From NCBI GenBank assembly GCA_002707605.1, contig PANK01000002.1:1-35941 (forward strand): 35,941 bases of DNA, written 5' to 3'. Under the pieces are notes generated by a model. That model had not been told where the DNA came from. It searched no databases and was given only the letters and a program-made list of their open reading frames with translations. A program made the position numbers and the translations under genes. Source of the stretch: Hoeflea sp. Its GTDB lineage: Bacteria > Pseudomonadota > Alphaproteobacteria > Rhizobiales > Rhizobiaceae. Positions within the stretch are counted from its first letter, which is position 1, and the number at the start of each line of letters is the position of its first letter. Of the stretch, positions 2,816-25,944 are shown piece by piece.

Positions 2816-5077
2816 TCAGCCCTCGCGTTCCGGATTGAAGCGCAGCAGCCGCAATGCGTTCAGCGTGACTAGAACCGTGGCCCCCGTGTCGGCCATGATC
2901 GCGATCCAGAGACCGGTCAGGCCCAGAACCGAGGTCACCAGAAACACTGCCTTCAGGCCCAGCACCATGGTGACATTCTGGCGGATGTTGGTCATCGCCG
3001 CGCGGGTGAGGCGGATGGTGACCGGGATGTCGGTCACCCGGTCGCGCAGGATGGCTGCATCGGCCGTTTCGAGCGCGACATCAGTGCCCGATCCCATGGC
3101 CACGCCAACGCTCGCCTGTTTCAGCGCCGGTGCGTCGTTGATGCCGTCGCCGATCATCATCACGCCGCCATGCTCGCTCATGTCGCGGATGGCCTTGATC
3201 TTGTCTTCGGGCATCATGTCGGCCTGGTACTCGACGCCCAGGCTACCCGCAATCGCCGCTGCCGTACGGGGGTTGTCCCCGGTCAGGATGAGGGGCGTGA
3301 TGCCCATGGCTTTCAACTGACGCACGGCTTCGGGCGCATCCGCGCGCGGTTCGTCACGCATGGCGATGACGCCAAGCGGGGTCTTTTCGCGGAACACCAC
3401 GACGGCGGTCTTGCCCTGTTCCTCGAATACTGTCGTCTGGGCGAGACCCGCGTCGTCAATCCCAGCATTGTCCTTGGCATATCCTGGTGAAGCCACCCAG
3501 GCGGAAGCGTTACCCACCGTGGCGATCACACCCTTGCCCATCAACGCTTTTGCATCGCTTGAGGGCAGGATTGTTATGCCTGCCTCCTCCGCCTTGTTCA
3601 GAATGGCGATGGCCAACGGATGGCTGGAGCCGCTTTCGACCCCGGCCGCGACAGCCAGAAGTTCGGCCTCGGTCGTTGTGCCAAAAGTTACGATATCCGT
3701 CACCACTGGCCGCCCATCCGTCAGCGTCCCGGTTTTGTCAAAGGCAACCCGAGATACCTTCGCAGCCGCCTCGATCACTGCGCCGCCCTTCATCAGAATG
3801 CCGCGCCGCGCGCCTGTTGACAGCGCCGAAGCAATGGACGCGGGAACCGAGATCACGAGCGCACAGGGGCAGCCAATCAGCAGCAGCGCCAGCCCGCGGT
3901 AAACCCATGTGTCCCAAGGCTGGCCAAAGGCCAGGGGCGGCACCAGCACGACCAGAGCCGCAACAGTGACGATAGCGGGCATATACCAGCGGCTGAAGCG
4001 GTCAATGAACCGTTCGGTCGGCGCGCGTGCCTCCTCGGCCTCTTCCACGAGGCGTATAATGCGCGAGATGGTGTTGTCGGCGGCGGCTTTGGTCACCGTG
4101 ACCCGCAACGCGGCTTCTGTGTTGATGGAGCCTGCGAAGACCGAATCACCGGGTCCCTTGTTCACCGGAACACTTTCACCAGTCACCGGGCTATCATCCA
4201 CGCCCGAGGTGCCTTCTTTGATCTCGCCATCCGCCGGGATGCGATCGCCGGGACGGACGAGCACGGTCTGCCCCACGGCAAGACTTGCCGCCGGCACTTC
4301 GCGTGTGGCGCCGTTCATCTCCAAAAGCGCCGTCTTCGGAACCAGATTGGCAAGAGCGCGAATTCCATCACGCGCCTTGCCTGCGGCCACGCCTTCCAGA
4401 ACCTCCCCCACAGCGAACAGGAAAACGACCAAAGCCGCTTCTTCCGCGGCATTGATGAACAATGCGCCGATCGCGGCAATTGTCATCAGGCTTTCGATGG
4501 TGAAGGGCTGTCCCATGCGCAATGCTGCAAATGCGCGGCGGGCGACGGGAGCAACCCCGATCAGACAGGCTGCAACGAAGGCCCAATTGCCGATCTCCGG
4601 AACGATCAGTTCCACCCCCCAGGCAACCACAAGAAGCAGGGCGGTAAAGATCACCAGCCTCCCCTTGGCCGTCTGATACCAGCGTTTGTCCCGATCGGCG
4701 GGATCGTCATGAACATGGCCGGAACTGCCGTGGCCGAAATCGTCCTTTGAATTGCCGTCCGCATGGGAATGGCCGGTACCACTTCCACCATGGTCATTAT
4801 CTTCGACCGGGTCCGCCGTCACCATCCGCGGTGAAATGCCGTAGCCAAGCGCCCGAACGGTTTTTTCAATCTTGTCGCGGCCAGTCTCGCCCTCGTCCAG
4901 AGTCAGGCGCAGACGTTCGGACATGATACCGACCTCGACACCGGTAACTCCTGGCAACCGTGCCAAAGCATCTTTTATCTTTGTGGCACAGGACCCGCAG
5001 TCCATGCCAGACACCGTCCAGTCGCAACTGATTTTGTTGTTTGCTTCCATTTCCGTCACCGCTTTTCCTTCCCCCAC
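2816..5077 (-). CDS. cadA: Heavy-metal translocating P1B-type ATPase (Cd/Zn/Pb type)
   Basis: GMDCGSCATKI HMA domain, His-rich linker, CPCALVIS, DKTGTLT, MIGDGINDAPAL. Confidence 0.93.
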   Translation of the reverse strand: MGEGKAVTEMEANNKISCDWTVSGMDCGSCATKIKDALARLPGVTGVEVGIMSERLRLTLDEGETGRDKIEKTVRALGYGISPRMVTADPVEDNDHGGSGTGHSHADGNSKDDFGHGSSGHVHDDPADRDKRWYQTAKGRLVIFTALLLVVAWGVELIVPEIGNWAFVAACLIGVAPVARRAFAALRMGQPFTIESLMTIAAIGALFINAAEEAALVVFLFAVGEVLEGVAAGKARDGIRALANLVPKTALLEMNGATREVPAASLAVGQTVLVRPGDRIPADGEIKEGTSGVDDSPVTGESVPVNKGPGDSVFAGSINTEAALRVTVTKAAADNTISRIIRLVEEAEEARAPTERFIDRFSRWYMPAIVTVAALVVLVPPLAFGQPWDTWVYRGLALLLIGCPCALVISVPASIASALSTGARRGILMKGGAVIEAAAKVSRVAFDKTGTLTDGRPVVTDIVTFGTTTEAELLAVAAGVESGSSHPLAIAILNKAEEAGITILPSSDAKALMGKGVIATVGNASAWVASPGYAKDNAGIDDAGLAQTTVFEEQGKTAVVVFREKTPLGVIAMRDEPRADAPEAVRQLKAMGITPLILTGDNPRTAAAIAGSLGVEYQADMMPEDKIKAIRDMSEHGGVMMIGDGINDAPALKQASVGVAMGSGTDVALETADAAILRDRVTDIPVTIRLTRAAMTNIRQNVTMVLGLKAVFLVTSVLGLTGLWIAIMADTGATVLVTLNALRLLRFNPEREG

Positions 5078-5982: not shown

Positions 5983-6696
5983 ATGAAAAAAAACAGATTG
6001 CTGATCGTTGATGCTGCACGAGGAACGGCGATCGCTGGCGTGGTGCTTTTCCATCTCGTCTGGGATCTGGAATTCACCGGCTTCATATCTGGCGTGGCCT
6101 TTCATCCACTGTGGCTCGTATTCGGACGTTCGCTGGCTGGAAGCTTCATGTTCCTTGCGGGAGTGAGTCTGGTTCTGGCGCATGGCGTCCAGTTCAGGAC
6201 AACGACATATTTTCGCCGACTCGGCGTCATTGTTGCTGCCGCCATGGCGATAACAATCGTCACTTTCCTGGTATTTCCCGGTGCGTTTGTGTATTTCGGC
6301 ATCTTGCATTCGATCGCCATTGCAAGTCTCATCGGCGTTGTTTTTCTCAGACCCCCGGCTTCAGTTAGTCTGCTGACCGGATTGGTGATGATGGCGCTTC
6401 CATGGTTCGTCTCGCTGTCGGCCTTTGACCCCCGATGGCTGGCGTGGATCGGCCTTTCAGCCACCCCGCCGCTCAGCAATGATTTCGTACCAGTGCTTCC
6501 CTGGGCGGGCGTGACGCTTCTTGGCATCGCTTTCGCCAAAGTGTGTGACGTTGGATTGCATCAGGTAAAAAGCGCGAGTGTGGACAGCACTTTCCTGGCC
6601 AAGCTCGCTTGGTTGGGCCGCCACAGCCTCGCAATATATTTGCTGCATCAGCCGGTGATGCTCGCAATCATTGTTCCCTTGTCGCGCCTGCTTTGA
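5983..6696 (+). CDS. DUF1624 / heparan-alpha-glucosaminide N-acetyltransferase-like membrane protein
   Basis: RLLIVDAARGTAIAGVVLFHLVWDLEF, SFMFLAGVSLVLAHG; multi-TM; start within ORF 5959-6696. Confidence 0.8.
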   Translation: MKKNRLLIVDAARGTAIAGVVLFHLVWDLEFTGFISGVAFHPLWLVFGRSLAGSFMFLAGVSLVLAHGVQFRTTTYFRRLGVIVAAAMAITIVTFLVFPGAFVYFGILHSIAIASLIGVVFLRPPASVSLLTGLVMMALPWFVSLSAFDPRWLAWIGLSATPPLSNDFVPVLPWAGVTLLGIAFAKVCDVGLHQVKSASVDSTFLAKLAWLGRHSLAIYLLHQPVMLAIIVPLSRLL

Positions 6697-7771
6697 GGGG
6701 TTGCCGTCGGGCGACGAAGGGGTCGGCGAGCGCTGCTTGCGGACGGCTGACCGGGACAGCAGTCGATGAAGTGATTTCCGACAAATACTGCGGGCCTTTC
6801 TTGGCCAGAATCTTGCGGAAGACCGGGTTCATACCGCCATCCGAATAGGCGAGACCAGGACTTTGGACATCGTTGAGGAGGCTTTTCATCTTCTCGATGT
6901 CGCCCGTTGATTTCTCGGCCACTTGCTGAACTTCCGGTTCAAAAGCCGGGCATTGTCCAAGCGGGTCGGTGGGCGAATTGCCGTTGAGGGGTTCGCCGAA
7001 CCGGTAGCGACCCTCGCAGAATTGAAACCGGGGTGGTTGTCGCAGAACTTCAAAGCGATCATAGCCCGCCTTGAGATCCATCCAGAAGTCGAAATTCGGG
7101 TTGTCCTTGTGCGCCGCAAGGTTTTCGGGCGTCATCCGAAACGGATAGGACTGGACCTGAAAGTCCTGCTGGCCGCCTTTCAATGCTTCTCTGACGACCG
7201 CGTAAACTTCCGCGACATACTCATCGGAAATCGCAAAGCAACCCGACGATGAGCACGCGCCATGCACCATCAGGGCGGAACCGGTGTAGCCCTTTGCCCG
7301 CTCCAGCCTGTTCGGATAACCGAGATCGAAGGAAAGGTAGTATTGCGATCTCGGGTTCAGCCTGCCGGAATTGACGGTGTAGAATCCTTCAGGCGCCTGC
7401 CGGTCGCCTTCGAATTTTTTCGGACCCAATACGCCCGACCATCGGCACATTGGATAGGTTTTCATCAGTGCATACTTGCCGGTTGAATCCCGCTTCCAGA
7501 CTTCGAGTTCGCTTTCCTGCTTGAAAATACGAACCAGCACCGGGTCTGCGGGCCTCATTCCCATATCCCGCATTTTGGCGACAGTCTTTTGCGGGATAGG
7601 AACATCGCCTCGGCCATCAAGCTCCAGCGTGCTCGTCACACATCCGGTCAAGACCAGACCTGCCATGAGAATGCCGATCACACTGAATCGAAATCCCCGG
7701 GTTGCACGGCGCTTTTTTCTGATCATAGGCAGCATCAATTTCCGTTTCTTGCCCCTGGCTTCAGACAACAA
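6668..7771 (-). CDS. YkuD-domain murein L,D-transpeptidase (YafK-like), probable lipoprotein
   Basis: Lipobox-like VLTGC; MVHGACSSSGCFAISDEYVAEVY catalytic region. Confidence 0.85.
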   Translation of the reverse strand: MLSEARGKKRKLMLPMIRKKRRATRGFRFSVIGILMAGLVLTGCVTSTLELDGRGDVPIPQKTVAKMRDMGMRPADPVLVRIFKQESELEVWKRDSTGKYALMKTYPMCRWSGVLGPKKFEGDRQAPEGFYTVNSGRLNPRSQYYLSFDLGYPNRLERAKGYTGSALMVHGACSSSGCFAISDEYVAEVYAVVREALKGGQQDFQVQSYPFRMTPENLAAHKDNPNFDFWMDLKAGYDRFEVLRQPPRFQFCEGRYRFGEPLNGNSPTDPLGQCPAFEPEVQQVAEKSTGDIEKMKSLLNDVQSPGLAYSDGGMNPVFRKILAKKGPQYLSEITSSTAVPVSRPQAALADPFVARRQPLKAGATREQ

Positions 7772-8429
7772 TCAGCCTGGCGCCATTGGTCACGCGGCCG
7801 TAAAGGTCGACAACATCCTGATTGATCATCCGCACGCAACCGCTGGAAACCGATTTGCCGATGGTCCAGTATTCCGGCGATCCGTGGATGCGGTAAAGCG
7901 TATCCTCACCATTCTGGAAGATGTAGAGGGCGCGGGCGCCGAGCGGATTGTCAAGACCAGGCGGCATACCGCCATTGCTGGCGCTCCATTTTGCAAGCTC
8001 GGGTTGCCGCGCGATCATTTCGTCGGGCGGGGTCCATTTCGGCCAAGCCTGTTTCCACTGGATCACGCCTTCACCCGACCATTCGAAACCTTGCCGACCG
8101 AGGCCGACGCCATAACGCATGGCTTTTCCGCCTTCCTGGATCAGATGAAGGAAATATGTCTTTGTATTGACGATGACCGTTCCAACTGGATACGGACTGG
8201 TGAAATTCACCTGCCGCCTCCAGAATTTTGTTGGCACCTTGTTGATGTCGATAGCGGGCAGGGGAAACCGTTCGCCGGGCATCGGTCCATACATTGCCCG
8301 GATTGTGGCTAACTTCGGATTGGGTGTCGCTTCCTCAACCGGTAGGTCGGTTCTGGTTGCAGTGGTGCATCCGGACAATGCCAGGACTGAGGATCCTGCG
8401 GCTCCACATATGAATTGGCGGCGGTTCAT
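7761..8429 (-). CDS. L,D-transpeptidase (ErfK/YbiS/YcfS/YnhG type), probable lipoprotein
   Basis: ALSGC lipobox; YRIHGSPEYWTIGKSVSSGCVRMINQDVVDLY catalytic motif. Confidence 0.92.
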   Translation of the reverse strand: MNRRQFICGAAGSSVLALSGCTTATRTDLPVEEATPNPKLATIRAMYGPMPGERFPLPAIDINKVPTKFWRRQVNFTSPYPVGTVIVNTKTYFLHLIQEGGKAMRYGVGLGRQGFEWSGEGVIQWKQAWPKWTPPDEMIARQPELAKWSASNGGMPPGLDNPLGARALYIFQNGEDTLYRIHGSPEYWTIGKSVSSGCVRMINQDVVDLYGRVTNGARLIVV

Positions 8430-8558
8430 ATCGTTTCAACTTTCACAACTTCTTGCATGGTGGACCTGTTCAAATTCATCATTGGTGGAGTGCGAGCCGC
8501 AAACTCCGGAACTGGTTTGCGGCTCTCGGTAACGTGCATGTGAAGAATGGTTTTGGCG

Positions 8559-9119
8559 CTACAGCACCACAACCCGAGCGCCGACTGGCACCCGCTCAAA
8601 AAGGTCTTCGACATGTTCATTGATCATGCGGATGCAGCCATTGGACACCGAGCGCCCGATCGAAGATGGCTCCGTTGTGCCATGAATGCGGTAGAGCGTA
8701 TCGCGCCCATCCCTGTACAAATAGAGAGCCCGCGAGCCCAAAGGATTGGTCGGGCCGCCAGGAACACCCTTGGCGAAGCGCGCGTACTTCTTCGGATTGC
8801 GCTTGATCATATTGGCTGTAGGGGTCCATGAGGGCCACTTGGCTTTTCGTCCGACCTTCGCCTGTCCCTTGAAAGCCAGCCCGGCCCGGCCCACTCCGAC
8901 GCCATAGCGGCGCGCCTTTCCTGCAGCAAGCTGCAAATACAAGAAGTGGTTTTTCGGGTCGATTATGATTGTACCGGGGTTGTAACCGCTGAAGCTAATT
9001 AATTGCGGTTCGTATTTTTCGTCCAGTTTGAACTTCTCGGCGTGGGCGTAGGCTGGTAGCCCGTACGATGTGGCAAGGCAGGCGCCAACGCCAAATAGCA
9101 TTTCTCTTCTTGAAATCAT
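8559..9119 (-). CDS. L,D-transpeptidase (ErfK/YbiS type), exported
   Basis: YRIHGTTEPSSIGRSVSNGCIRMINEHVEDLFERVPVGARV; N-terminal signal; start MISRREM within ORF 8559-9128. Confidence 0.92.
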   Translation of the reverse strand: MISRREMLFGVGACLATSYGLPAYAHAEKFKLDEKYEPQLISFSGYNPGTIIIDPKNHFLYLQLAAGKARRYGVGVGRAGLAFKGQAKVGRKAKWPSWTPTANMIKRNPKKYARFAKGVPGGPTNPLGSRALYLYRDGRDTLYRIHGTTEPSSIGRSVSNGCIRMINEHVEDLFERVPVGARVVVL

Positions 9120-9177
9120 GTTTCCCACTCACGTCTTTGAAGGTTTCCTATCTGCACGGGAATGCGCAGGTTTACAT

Positions 9178-9522
9178 TCATGCGTGAGCGTTTGGTGGTC
9201 GTGGGACTACATTTCCGATGTTGAAGAGAAGCACGGGTTTGAATTCGAAGTCATGCTCCTGTGTCTCGGGTGCCACTGTCGGAACATTCATCACAGCAAA
9301 AATTGCACAGTGCATCGGACAGTGGGCAGATATCTTGCTCCCGGTTTCCTCGCCGAGCGGCTTGGTGTCAGAGCCAAGATCACTGTCAACGGCAATTGAA
9401 GTGCATTCGATCGCATCAGTTCTGCTTTGGCAGTCAAAAAGAACATTGTCCTCATCCAACGAATGCGCGAGCGCCGGAAGCGCCAGCAGCAATGCTAGAA
9501 TGAAGGTCAGCACACGGATCAT
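9178..9522 (-). CDS. Small exported protein with CPMHC motif, unknown function
   Basis: Signal peptide MIRVLTFILALLLALPALAHS then 90 aa with CPMHCAIF; position next to metal genes. Confidence 0.5.
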   Translation of the reverse strand: MIRVLTFILALLLALPALAHSLDEDNVLFDCQSRTDAIECTSIAVDSDLGSDTKPLGEETGSKISAHCPMHCAIFAVMNVPTVAPETQEHDFEFKPVLLFNIGNVVPRPPNAHA

Positions 9523-9940: not shown

Positions 9941-11152
9941 TTAAATCTTCACGAGCATAGCTGTCAGGTACATGAACCCTACACCTACAGCGAGTCCCGC
10001 CATCACCGGCATCGATCCGAGGCGGGCGCTGTCGCCGCCACTTCTACGCACCAGCAGCGCGCTGACCTCGAAAATGACCTGAAGAATTGCACCAGCGCCG
10101 ATCGCCAACGCCAGCGCCGACCATTGCGGCGCATAGGCAAGGCTGCCGATCCAGATACCCACCACAGCTGGCCCTCCTGCCAGCAGCGCCAGCGCCGCGA
10201 ACGTCCATAGCGGCGGTCGCACCTTCAGGATCGGCGCAGCTATTCCAATGCCTTCCGTGATGTTGTGGAGTGTGAAGCCAATCACAAGGAATGTTCCAAG
10301 TCCTGCGGCGCCTGCCGCGAAGGCAGCACCAATGGCCAGCCCTTCGCCAAGGTTATGGAGGCCTATCCCGAGCGAGATGTAAGTTGCGAGCGCCAATCCC
10401 GTCGGACTACCCTGCCGCCGTGAGACCGCCATCAGGATGAGGAAGCTCGCGGCCGCCGTCAGCACGACCATGGCTTGGCCCTGGAATATCGCAGCCGCTT
10501 GCGATGCGAACTCCAGCGAATCCTCCAGCGTGTCGACTATTAGAAAGCCGAGCAGGCCGACAGTCATGGCGAGCAAGAATTCCATGGTCGACGGACCCGC
10601 GCCACGCAGCGCCGGATAGAACATCACCCCGACCGCGACCGGCAGAATGCCTACGAATGCACCGAGAATTGCCTGCGATACGAGATTCCCCGACGTGACG
10701 GACGGAGTAGCTACCGCCACTGGTATCGCGTGATCAAACGTCGCGCCGGTGTTGGTTACGAAGGTGACACGATGCGCCTCTCCCGTCACCCAGGGGAACG
10801 GCAGACTGACCCATGCGGTCTCGCCTCTGGCGATCGGCCCGGACGGTTCTTGAACGAACTCCCAATAGGCAGCATCAACCTGAATCTGCGCGATTATCAT
10901 CGGCTCGGAGCCACCGGCGCGGACCAGCAGACGCAACCCGTTGAGGTCGAGGATGGTACGTTCGACGGTCAGGGATTCCAACGGCGGCGCGCCATTGTCG
11001 AACCGAGCCAGGGGATTGGTGGCGATCAACCACCAGATTGCGACAGTCAACACTGCGAGTGGCAGGATCACCCAGATCGCGGACAGCCAGCTAGAGCCTT
11101 TCGGCGGGGTCACCGGGACGGCGCTCGGGTCAGTCGTTAAATCCTCGTTCAT
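9941..11152 (-). CDS. ZIP-family metal transporter with N-terminal TM-anchored extracytoplasmic domain
   Basis: Start MNEDLTTDPSAVPV; TM helix SAIWVILPLAVLTVAIWWLI, about 110-aa soluble segment, then ZIP motifs GLHNLGEGLAIGAAFA and FTLHNITEGIGIA. ATGA overlap with the upstream MCO stop. ORF track extends upstream to 11287. Confidence 0.88.
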   Translation of the reverse strand: MNEDLTTDPSAVPVTPPKGSSWLSAIWVILPLAVLTVAIWWLIATNPLARFDNGAPPLESLTVERTILDLNGLRLLVRAGGSEPMIIAQIQVDAAYWEFVQEPSGPIARGETAWVSLPFPWVTGEAHRVTFVTNTGATFDHAIPVAVATPSVTSGNLVSQAILGAFVGILPVAVGVMFYPALRGAGPSTMEFLLAMTVGLLGFLIVDTLEDSLEFASQAAAIFQGQAMVVLTAAASFLILMAVSRRQGSPTGLALATYISLGIGLHNLGEGLAIGAAFAAGAAGLGTFLVIGFTLHNITEGIGIAAPILKVRPPLWTFAALALLAGGPAVVGIWIGSLAYAPQWSALALAIGAGAILQVIFEVSALLVRRSGGDSARLGSMPVMAGLAVGVGFMYLTAMLVKI

Positions 11153-12279
11153 GACACTGCCTCGACGACGTCGAACATCCCCATCCAGCCAAGCTCGGTG
11201 AACTCCGACTGGTGGGCATGGAACATGTAAAGGCCTGGCTCGTGGTCGGCGAATGTAAACTCCAGAATACCCCGCTGCGCCTGGCATTGCATAATGACAT
11301 CGACGGTCTTTAAAGTCGGCGTGAGGGTGGTACCCTGATCATAGTAATCGAAGAAATTGGCGTGCAAATGAAATGAGTTAATGGGGTCGAATTCGGTGAT
11401 GTTCACGAGGTAGACGCGCACCGGACGGTTTTTCTCGATCCGAATCGGCTTCTTGGCGTAGCAATGCGCGATTGTGTTGCAGGCATAGAACTCATTCTCG
11501 CCATCAAAGGTGGTGTCGAAGGCGTTCATCACCATGGCAAGCTCCTGCCAGCGGGCGTTCTCAGGCGTTCCAAGCAGTCGGGACCGTGCCACATCTTCAA
11601 AGTCGGGATGACGTTCGGGGTCCGGGTCGACAACAAACAGTCCGTACATGCCCTTGTGGATGTGCCGCGCGAGCGGCAACGCGTGGCAATGGTACAGATG
11701 GCAACCGAAGGGCTTTGCCTCGAACTCGTATACAAACTCTTCCCCTGGGCCTATCAACCCTGCGCCAGGAATGCCGTCCATGCGCGCGGCATGAATGCCG
11801 TGGAAGTGCATCGTGTGAGGGTGAGAACCATAGTTACGAAAGACGATGCGCAACTGCTCACCCTCGATGGCTCTCAATGCAGGTCCGGGAACCCGACCAT
11901 TGAACGTCCAGGCTGGAAACATGACGCCCGGTGCGATCTCAATCTCCTTGTCTTCTGCCGTGACTTCAAAGGTTCGCAGGCGCCTGCCGTCGGGCAAGGT
12001 CGAAACTTTGCCGGTGTCCCAGTCCGTCAACATGGCGGTAGGATCGAAGCCGTTTCGGACATCGTCGACCTCTCCCGTCGTGATCATCGCGCCATGGGCG
12101 GCGCGATGAGCCGGGACGCCCGCCTTTGCGGCGCTCTGGGCTGTACCCCCGCCATGTCCAGCCGGGTGGGTGGATTGGCCAAAGGCCTCACGGCCACTCA
12201 GAGCCGCGCCTCCTGCGGCAAGCAGGCCGGCGCCGAGGAGTCCTCGACGTCTGAGATCAAACGGCAGCCAGTTTCTCAT
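11149..12279 (-). CDS. Multicopper oxidase, exported (Tat-like signal)
   Basis: RRRGLLGAGLLAAGGAAL signal; copper ligand motifs HPHTMHFHG, HLYHCHALPLARHIHKGMYG, FHLHANFF, MFHAHQSEF. Confidence 0.9.
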   Translation of the reverse strand: MRNWLPFDLRRRGLLGAGLLAAGGAALSGREAFGQSTHPAGHGGGTAQSAAKAGVPAHRAAHGAMITTGEVDDVRNGFDPTAMLTDWDTGKVSTLPDGRRLRTFEVTAEDKEIEIAPGVMFPAWTFNGRVPGPALRAIEGEQLRIVFRNYGSHPHTMHFHGIHAARMDGIPGAGLIGPGEEFVYEFEAKPFGCHLYHCHALPLARHIHKGMYGLFVVDPDPERHPDFEDVARSRLLGTPENARWQELAMVMNAFDTTFDGENEFYACNTIAHCYAKKPIRIEKNRPVRVYLVNITEFDPINSFHLHANFFDYYDQGTTLTPTLKTVDVIMQCQAQRGILEFTFADHEPGLYMFHAHQSEFTELGWMGMFDVVEAVS

Positions 12280-12326
12280 GCGCTTCTCCTTAGCTCCTGC
12301 AATCTAGAAAAGCACATCATTTGTAT

Positions 12327-12342
12327 TATAGCAATTGCTATA
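12327..12342. promoter_or_regulatory. Candidate MntR operator 1 overlapping the predicted MCO-ZIP promoter
   Basis: 16-bp perfect palindrome TATAGCAATTGCTATA containing ATAGC-N4-GCTAT; overlaps a perfect minus-strand -10 TATAAT (12325-12330). Confidence 0.7.
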
Positions 12343-12377
12343 TATGGCATTTTCCCTTTTCCGATCAGTCGTCTCGC

Positions 12378-12406
12378 TTGGAATAAGCTATAGCTGCAGC
12401 TAAGAT
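12378..12406 (+). promoter_or_regulatory. Predicted mntR promoter with candidate MntR operator 2
   Basis: TTGGAA (12378-12383)-N17-TAAGAT (12401-12406); perfect palindrome TAGCTGCAGCTA (12391-12402) in the spacer, matching ATAGC-N4-GCTAa. Confidence 0.6.
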
Positions 12407-12447
12407 GTTTACTCACACGGTGAGAGTACGATACGGGAGCAACCTAG

Positions 12448-12891
12448 ATGGACGATCCGGCAACAGGTGAAAATGTGGGATTGGTGGACGCTGGCACGCA
12501 CGTCGAAAGCTTCCGTCAGACTCGCAGCAATCGGCGAACGGAACTCATTGAGGACTATGTAGAGTTGATCGCCGACCTGATTGATCATGACGGCGAAGCC
12601 CGCCAGGTCGACATTGCTCAAAGGCTCGGTGTCGCGCAGCCGACGGTAGCCAAGATGCTCAAGCGTCTGGTCGCCGAAGGATTGATCCAGCAACGGCGCT
12701 ATCGTGGGGTGTTCTTGACCGATGAGGGAAAGGAACTTGCACGCGTCAGTCGTGAGCGGCACCAGATCGTGGAATCCTTCTTGTGCGCCCTTGGCGTCAG
12801 CCTTGAAACCGCGCGCATTGACGCCGAGGGGATTGAGCACCATGTCAGCGCCGAGACGCTTGAAGCGTTCCGCGCGTTTCTTAAGAGGTAA
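12448..12891 (+). CDS. mntR: Manganese-responsive DtxR-family regulator MntR
   Basis: [66 protein letters not shown]...[14 protein letters not shown]...[10 protein letters not shown], closely MntR-like. Confidence 0.92.
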
Positions 12892-25155: not shown

Positions 25156-25944
25156 ATGGACGTGACGACGCTTTCACCTATTGCTCTGGGCTTTCTCGGA
25201 AGCCTTGCGGCGGGGTCTCTCACGGCTGTCGGTGCGATCCCGGCGCTGTTCGGGCGTCTGCCGTCGCGGGCCACGCGGGATCTGTCGCTTGGTTTCGCCG
25301 CGGGCGTCATGCTGGCCGCGTCGTTCTTTTCGCTCATCATCCCGGCGCTCGACGCCGCCGAACTGCGTTATGACAACGGCGCTGTCGTACCCGCGCTTGT
25401 CTGCGTCGCCATCCTGCTGGGCATGGGTGCGGTCGCATTGATGAACGAGCGCTTGCCGCACGAACATTTCCGCACCGGGCGCGAAGGGCCAGAAGCAGCC
25501 TCGCTGCGCCGGGTTTGGCTCTTCATTATCGCAATCACGATCCACAACTTTCCTGAGGGCTTGGCCGTGGGTGTCGGTTTCGGGTCGGGCGGCTACGAAA
25601 ACGGGCTGCCACTCGCCATCGGAATCGGGTTGCAGAACGCCCCCGAAGGTCTTGCCGTTGCCGTCTCGCTTCTGGGCGAAGGTTACACGAGGCGGGGCGC
25701 TTGGGGAATCGCGGCGCTAACCGGCATGGTCGAGCCGGTGGGCGGCCTCATCGGCGCAGGCGTCATCCCGCTCTCCGAGCCGCTCCTGCCATGGGGCCTC
25801 GCTTTCGCGGCGGGTGCGATGCTCTACGTCATTAGTCATGAGATCATCCCAGAGACGCATCGCAACGGCCATCAGAACAGGGCGACGCTCGGCCTGGCCA
25901 TCGGGCTCGTGCTCATGCTGTTTCTTGATATCTGGCTGGAGTGA
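25156..25944 (+). CDS. ZIP-family metal transporter (ZupT-like)
   Basis: ITIHNFPEGLAVGVGFGSG, GIGLQNAPEGLAVAVSLLGEG, ISHEIIPETHRNGH. Confidence 0.92.
   Translation: MDVTTLSPIALGFLGSLAAGSLTAVGAIPALFGRLPSRATRDLSLGFAAGVMLAASFFSLIIPALDAAELRYDNGAVVPALVCVAILLGMGAVALMNERLPHEHFRTGREGPEAASLRRVWLFIIAITIHNFPEGLAVGVGFGSGGYENGLPLAIGIGLQNAPEGLAVAVSLLGEGYTRRGAWGIAALTGMVEPVGGLIGAGVIPLSEPLLPWGLAFAAGAMLYVISHEIIPETHRNGHQNRATLGLAIGLVLMLFLDIWLE

Follow-up and report, generated by a model that had tools for sequence, protein, structure and literature searches.

What does a cell gain by placing a multicopper oxidase (MCO) and a ZIP-type metal transporter in one operon, next to the gene of a manganese-sensing regulator? 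Such an arrangement lies in the window analysed here, the whole 35,941-nucleotide stretch of Hoeflea sp. DNA, and a sequence-only reading had proposed it as a candidate module for oxidation-coupled metal import or metal homeostasis. Comparison of loci and proteins indicates that the pair forms a genuine operon, conserved and bearing strong signs of manganese control. The interpretation preferred here, to which we assign a probability of about 0.62, is that of a mobile, manganese-repressed metal-acquisition operon, in which the ZIP protein would bring Mn(II) into the cell and the MCO would serve as its metallo-oxidase partner.

The locus and the distribution of the pair

The three genes of the unit were recovered at the positions originally proposed for them; together with their regulatory sites and one gene of the surrounding island they are as follows.

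2816..5077, minus strand: ZntA-like Zn/Cd/Pb P-type ATPase of the same island (context, outside the operon)
9941..11152, minus strand: ZIP-fold metal transporter, 403 aa, called by profile search and predicted structure
11149..12279, minus strand: two-domain MCO, 376 aa, called by Pfam domains and copper ligands
12328..12341, no strand assigned: MntR box 1, ATAGCAATTGCTAT, MCO-proximal; on the minus strand its right half is the extended -10 TGCTATAAT
12390..12403, no strand assigned: MntR box 2, ATAGCTGCAGCTAA, one mismatch, mntR-proximal
12448..12891, plus strand: mntR, E. coli-type Mn-dependent regulator of the DtxR family, called by NCBIfam equivalog, divergent from the MCO-ZIP operon

The MCO stop codon (TGA, 11151-11149) and the ZIP start codon (ATG, 11152-11150) overlap on the minus strand, in agreement with the suggested ATGA coupling, and mntR, on the opposite strand, is indeed divergent from the MCO gene across a gap of 168 bases. 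An additional N-terminal helix and beta domain of the ZIP protein, as well as the two MntR boxes, had been overlooked in the sequence-only reading.

The proposed linkage of MCO, ZIP and mntR in other genomes was borne out by a neighbourhood check. A ZIP-anchored search of species genomes yielded 80 loci; the MCO adjoins ZIP at 79 of them, the remaining locus ending at a contig end, and a divergent mntR is present at 29/80. Of 199 genomes of the order, 16 have ZIP and 15 the MCO, all 15 being common to both; the sixteenth ZIP is fragmentary and has no MCO beside it. Plasmid totals for the two genes (147 and 144) and their genus counts are nearly equal, and the plasmid searches widen the range of the pair to Rhodobacterales, Actinobacteria, Bacilli, Cyanobacteria, Deinococcota and haloarchaea, including Arthrobacter, Rhodococcus, Cytobacillus, Halobaculum, Deinococcus and Chroococcidiopsis. 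Wherever both genes are visible in Alphaproteobacteria, Actinobacteria, Bacilli, Cyanobacteria, Deinococcota and haloarchaea, they are adjacent, and this linkage is beyond chance. Arthrobacter, Halobaculum and Deinococcus have DtxR/MntR-family regulators beside the pair, and no Mn regulator is visible next to it in the Rhodococcus, Cytobacillus, Chroococcidiopsis and Phormidium copies. No account of the MCO-ZIP pair came up in searches of the open-access literature, absence there being no proof.

The operon has spread on metal-resistance plasmids and islands. Besides the ZntA-like ATPase, the window holds three YkuD L,D-transpeptidases, CcmF, PCuAC, two SCO proteins, DsbA/DsbB, DUF411 and transposases, and a related P-type ATPase is found close to the pair at 21 of the loci examined. 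The ZIP of Martelella mediterranea IOP_24 is 99% identical to that of the window, which points to recent transfer. The three YkuD genes stand in tandem (6668-9128), similar ones occurring near the pair on several plasmids (L020, L120, L121, L128). Between the three genes and ZIP lies a 114-aa open reading frame (9178-9522) whose start resembles a signal sequence and which contains a CPMHCAIF motif; no family match was found for it.

The oxidase and the transporter

Judging by its copper sites, the MCO is a two-domain multicopper oxidase. It matches the Pfam domains Cu-oxidase_3 (9.8e-23) and Cu-oxidase_2 (2.3e-20), begins with a twin-arginine-type signal sequence, and carries the type 1 copper ligands H153/C198/H206/M211 in domain 1, plus eight trinuclear-cluster histidines. 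H153, C198, H206 and the eight histidines are invariant in 25 MCO sequences, and the axial ligand, Met here, is Leu in some relatives. Identification as a NirK nitrite reductase was rejected (TIGR02376, 85.1 bits against a cut-off of 296.3), as was that as a CopA/CueO copper resistance MCO (TIGR01480, 87 against 479; PRK10965, 42 against 525). The predicted model was poor (pLDDT 60) and served solely for naming PDB entries, of which 7RAB (Marinithermus hydrothermalis, a dodecamer; 73% identity in Foldseek) and the Arthrobacter-type 3GDC (50%) belong to the same two-domain subfamily. A plasmid gene of Arthrobacter sp. FB24, whose product equals the 3GDC sequence over the aligned stretch, shows the same MCO-ZIP arrangement with a DtxR/MntR-family regulator alongside. 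What distinguishes the present case from 7RAB and 3GDC is that the operon places this subfamily in a manganese context.

The earlier ZIP assignment holds for the predicted fold and is weaker in sequence than had been implied, the Pfam Zip (PF02535) score being 26.4-27.1 bits, under the gathering cut-off of 35.1; NCBI annotates its homologues as ZIP family or metal transporter. The predicted model (pLDDT 83) finds BbZIP as its best Foldseek match (E 1.3e-7, probability 1.00), and all nine PDB matches at E < 0.001 are BbZIP. In this model a helix (21-45) and a beta-sandwich (59-143) precede eight transmembrane helices that begin at 154. The beta-sandwich, with weak Foldseek matches to FlaF, the DsbD N-domain and CopC, is predicted to be periplasmic, that is, outside the membrane, a placement for which we assume ZIP-family topology.

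With BbZIP and ZupT the protein shares the eight-helix fold and the first-metal-site His and Glu on TM4 and TM5, whereas HNLPEG/QDVPEG of BbZIP has become HNLGEG (266-271) and HNITEG (296-301), the N-terminal helix and beta domain are additional, and the BbZIP TM6 Glu aligns with Gly. Across 37 homologues, H266, N267, G269, E270 and G271 in TM4 and H296, N297, T299, E300 and G301 in TM5 are invariant, His, Asn and Glu among them, and the Pro of the BbZIP motifs is Gly or Thr here. The N-terminal domain and the motifs also persist in distant homologues, apart from a single TM4 variant, the HNLAEG of Halobaculum. This ZIP is a distinct branch, marked out by the extra helix and beta-sandwich, the altered metal motifs HNxGEG/HNxTEG and the loss of the canonical TM6 Glu. 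A second ZIP of the window (25156-25944), downstream of SCO, DsbA/B and DUF411 genes, is canonical and ZupT-like (HNFPEG/QNAPEG/VEP).

Operator sites and probable manganese control

The regulator of the window reaches 239 bits against the cut-off of 153 for the NCBIfam equivalog NF008273, and all six metal ligands of B. subtilis MntR (1ON1) align with it. Since the MntR-box pattern is weak genome-wide, with reversed-pattern controls outnumbering the true pattern, sites placed in promoters alone were used. Two boxes of the form ATAGCnnnnGCTAT, with at most one mismatch, occur at 26 of the 29 mntR-linked loci, the MCO-proximal one about 66 bases upstream of the estimated start, and the 4.3 Mb genome has only one exact site besides box 1 of the window. 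The right half of the MCO-proximal box is TATAAT or a one-mismatch form of it in 23 of 43 promoters, that of the window among them; scanning for promoters gave no canonical two-hexamer sigma-70 site, and the -10 assignment rests on this analysis of overlap between box and TATAAT. A second mntR of the same genome adjoins mntH on another contig. The mntH promoter has a degenerate box only, resembling that of four Mesorhizobium mntH promoters; the island thus brings its own regulator together with cleaner sites.

Most loci without a linked mntR fall into two classes. In the first, many Mesorhizobium copies retain the MntR box, and in the four such genomes tested mntR lies elsewhere, adjoining mntH. 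In the second, a Fur/Mur-like box, TGCAAATCATTCGCATTTGCA or a close variant, is present, and seven of eight genomes sampled among these loci are without MntR. The exception, Aminobacter anthyllidis, possesses two MCO-ZIP operons (L036 and L072), one with mntR and MntR boxes and one with the Mur-like box. The Mur-like box occurs at six other sites in the six genomes searched, with sitA downstream of four and mntH of one, and we regard it as the probable Mur box.

Altogether, 66 of 75 distinct promoters carry one or both boxes (shuffled means 0.68 and 0.04): 40 have the MntR box only, 23 the Mur-like box only, three both and nine neither. These sites strongly indicate manganese-responsive control of the MCO-ZIP operon. 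The MntR-type palindrome resembles that of the E. coli MntR regulon, and the Fur/Mur-like box before sitA and mntH is reminiscent of the rhizobial Mur regulon; in the open-access literature searched, the operon was not found as a member of either. That two different Mn-type regulators have captured one operon is unusual comparative evidence of function.

Probable manganese acquisition and its alternatives

The occurrence of the two genes together in very distant microbes, under manganese-sensing switches, suggests that they are probably a manganese-uptake device, and acquisition of manganese is the most likely role of this conserved, apparently manganese-repressed operon. With sufficient Mn(II) in the cytoplasm, Mn-loaded MntR would occupy the palindrome observed at the -10 element and keep the operon off, Mur presumably taking over this part in lineages without mntR. 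A drop in manganese, for example where Zn, Cd or Cu block the usual Mn importers at metal-rich sites, would turn the operon on. The MCO would then be exported by the Tat pathway and the ZIP protein inserted into the inner membrane, where, as its family and regulation suggest, it would bring Mn(II) in. On the same membrane side as the outer face of ZIP, the oxidase would most likely condition the metal pool reaching the transporter, either by oxidising a competitor, Fe(II) or Cu(I) for instance, or by oxidising manganese itself in a Fet3/Ftr1-like relay. The module may thus supply manganese where other metals block its usual uptake. Against manganese acquisition stand the copper and Zn/Cd genes in whose company the operon moves, possibly a sign that it serves those metals, the lack of a visible adjacent Mn regulator at some distant copies, and the ability of MntR to activate genes in other bacteria (mntP of E. 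coli).

The first of these would suit detoxification, in which the MCO oxidises periplasmic Mn(II), Cu(I) or Fe(II), the ZIP protein helps to redistribute metal under excess, and MntR acts as an activator. The operon sits in copper/zinc resistance islands and on resistance plasmids, and its neighbours include a ZntA-like ATPase, PCuAC, SCO, DUF411 and a second MCO in relatives; this is consistent with such a role, as is the presence of the operon in Pseudaminobacter manganicus (L034), for which an MnCl2 MIC of 100 mM has been reported (PMC6203287). However, the MntR operator overlaps the -10, and in genomes without MntR the sites are of the type that precedes the uptake genes sitA and mntH, which makes protection less likely than acquisition. 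ZIP proteins, moreover, are in known cases importers of metal into the cytoplasm, and we consider detoxification improbable.

Strict oxidation-coupled import is a special case of acquisition: the MCO would convert Mn(II) to Mn(III) and hand it to ZIP or its beta domain, as Fet3-Ftr1 does with Fe(III). The near-obligate pairing, the distinct ZIP with its added domain and altered metal motifs, and the manganese regulation all argue for it. The comparison with the yeast system, drawn already in the sequence-only reading, survives as an analogy of logic, an extracytoplasmic multicopper oxidase being genetically tied to a permease in both. It does not extend to the permease, which here is ZIP-fold (an FTR1-family permease was rejected, as the window protein matches ZIP models only), and further differences are the two-domain MCO and control by Mn regulators. 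We know of no ZIP protein that carries Mn(III), and a literature search found no Mn-oxidation test of this MCO subfamily; strict coupling appears as unlikely as detoxification. Oxidation of manganese by Pseudomonas putida GB-1 raises intracellular Mn, and its authors suggested that coupled uptake was possible (PMC3798386), which may be read as a precedent of the idea only.

Least probable is that the MCO has no part in transport, being a laccase-like enzyme of organic substrates or a cuprous oxidase, and that the ZIP only shares its promoter: the closest solved relative, the Marinithermus enzyme, is described as having laccase activity, but it is hard to see why MCO and ZIP should be so strictly paired in several phyla and in two domains of life if they had no joint function.

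Manganese acquisition, the preferred reading, also has a bolder form, namely a cross-phylum, mobile, oxidation-assisted Mn importer with a dedicated oxidase and a specialised ZIP, suited to Cu-, Zn- or Cd-rich places. It is put forward tentatively, its odds being well short of even; if true, Fet3-Ftr1 would have a manganese counterpart built on ZIP. Manganese acquisition would offer a testable physiological role for a two-domain MCO subfamily known so far from solved structures, and would bear on why bacteria make metal-oxidising MCOs.

Some distant copies have further genes beside the pair. A Rieske-type iron-sulphur protein gene, possibly encoding a third subunit, directly follows ZIP in Rhodococcus and Chroococcidiopsis (L123:8219-8638, L127:8099-8530). 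At L127:9378-9995 a gene of the TMEM165/GDT1 family, a family of Mn exporters in cyanobacteria, lies near the pair. In Cytobacillus, ZIP is followed by a TatA/E gene (L124:8089-8265), which fits Tat export of the MCO.
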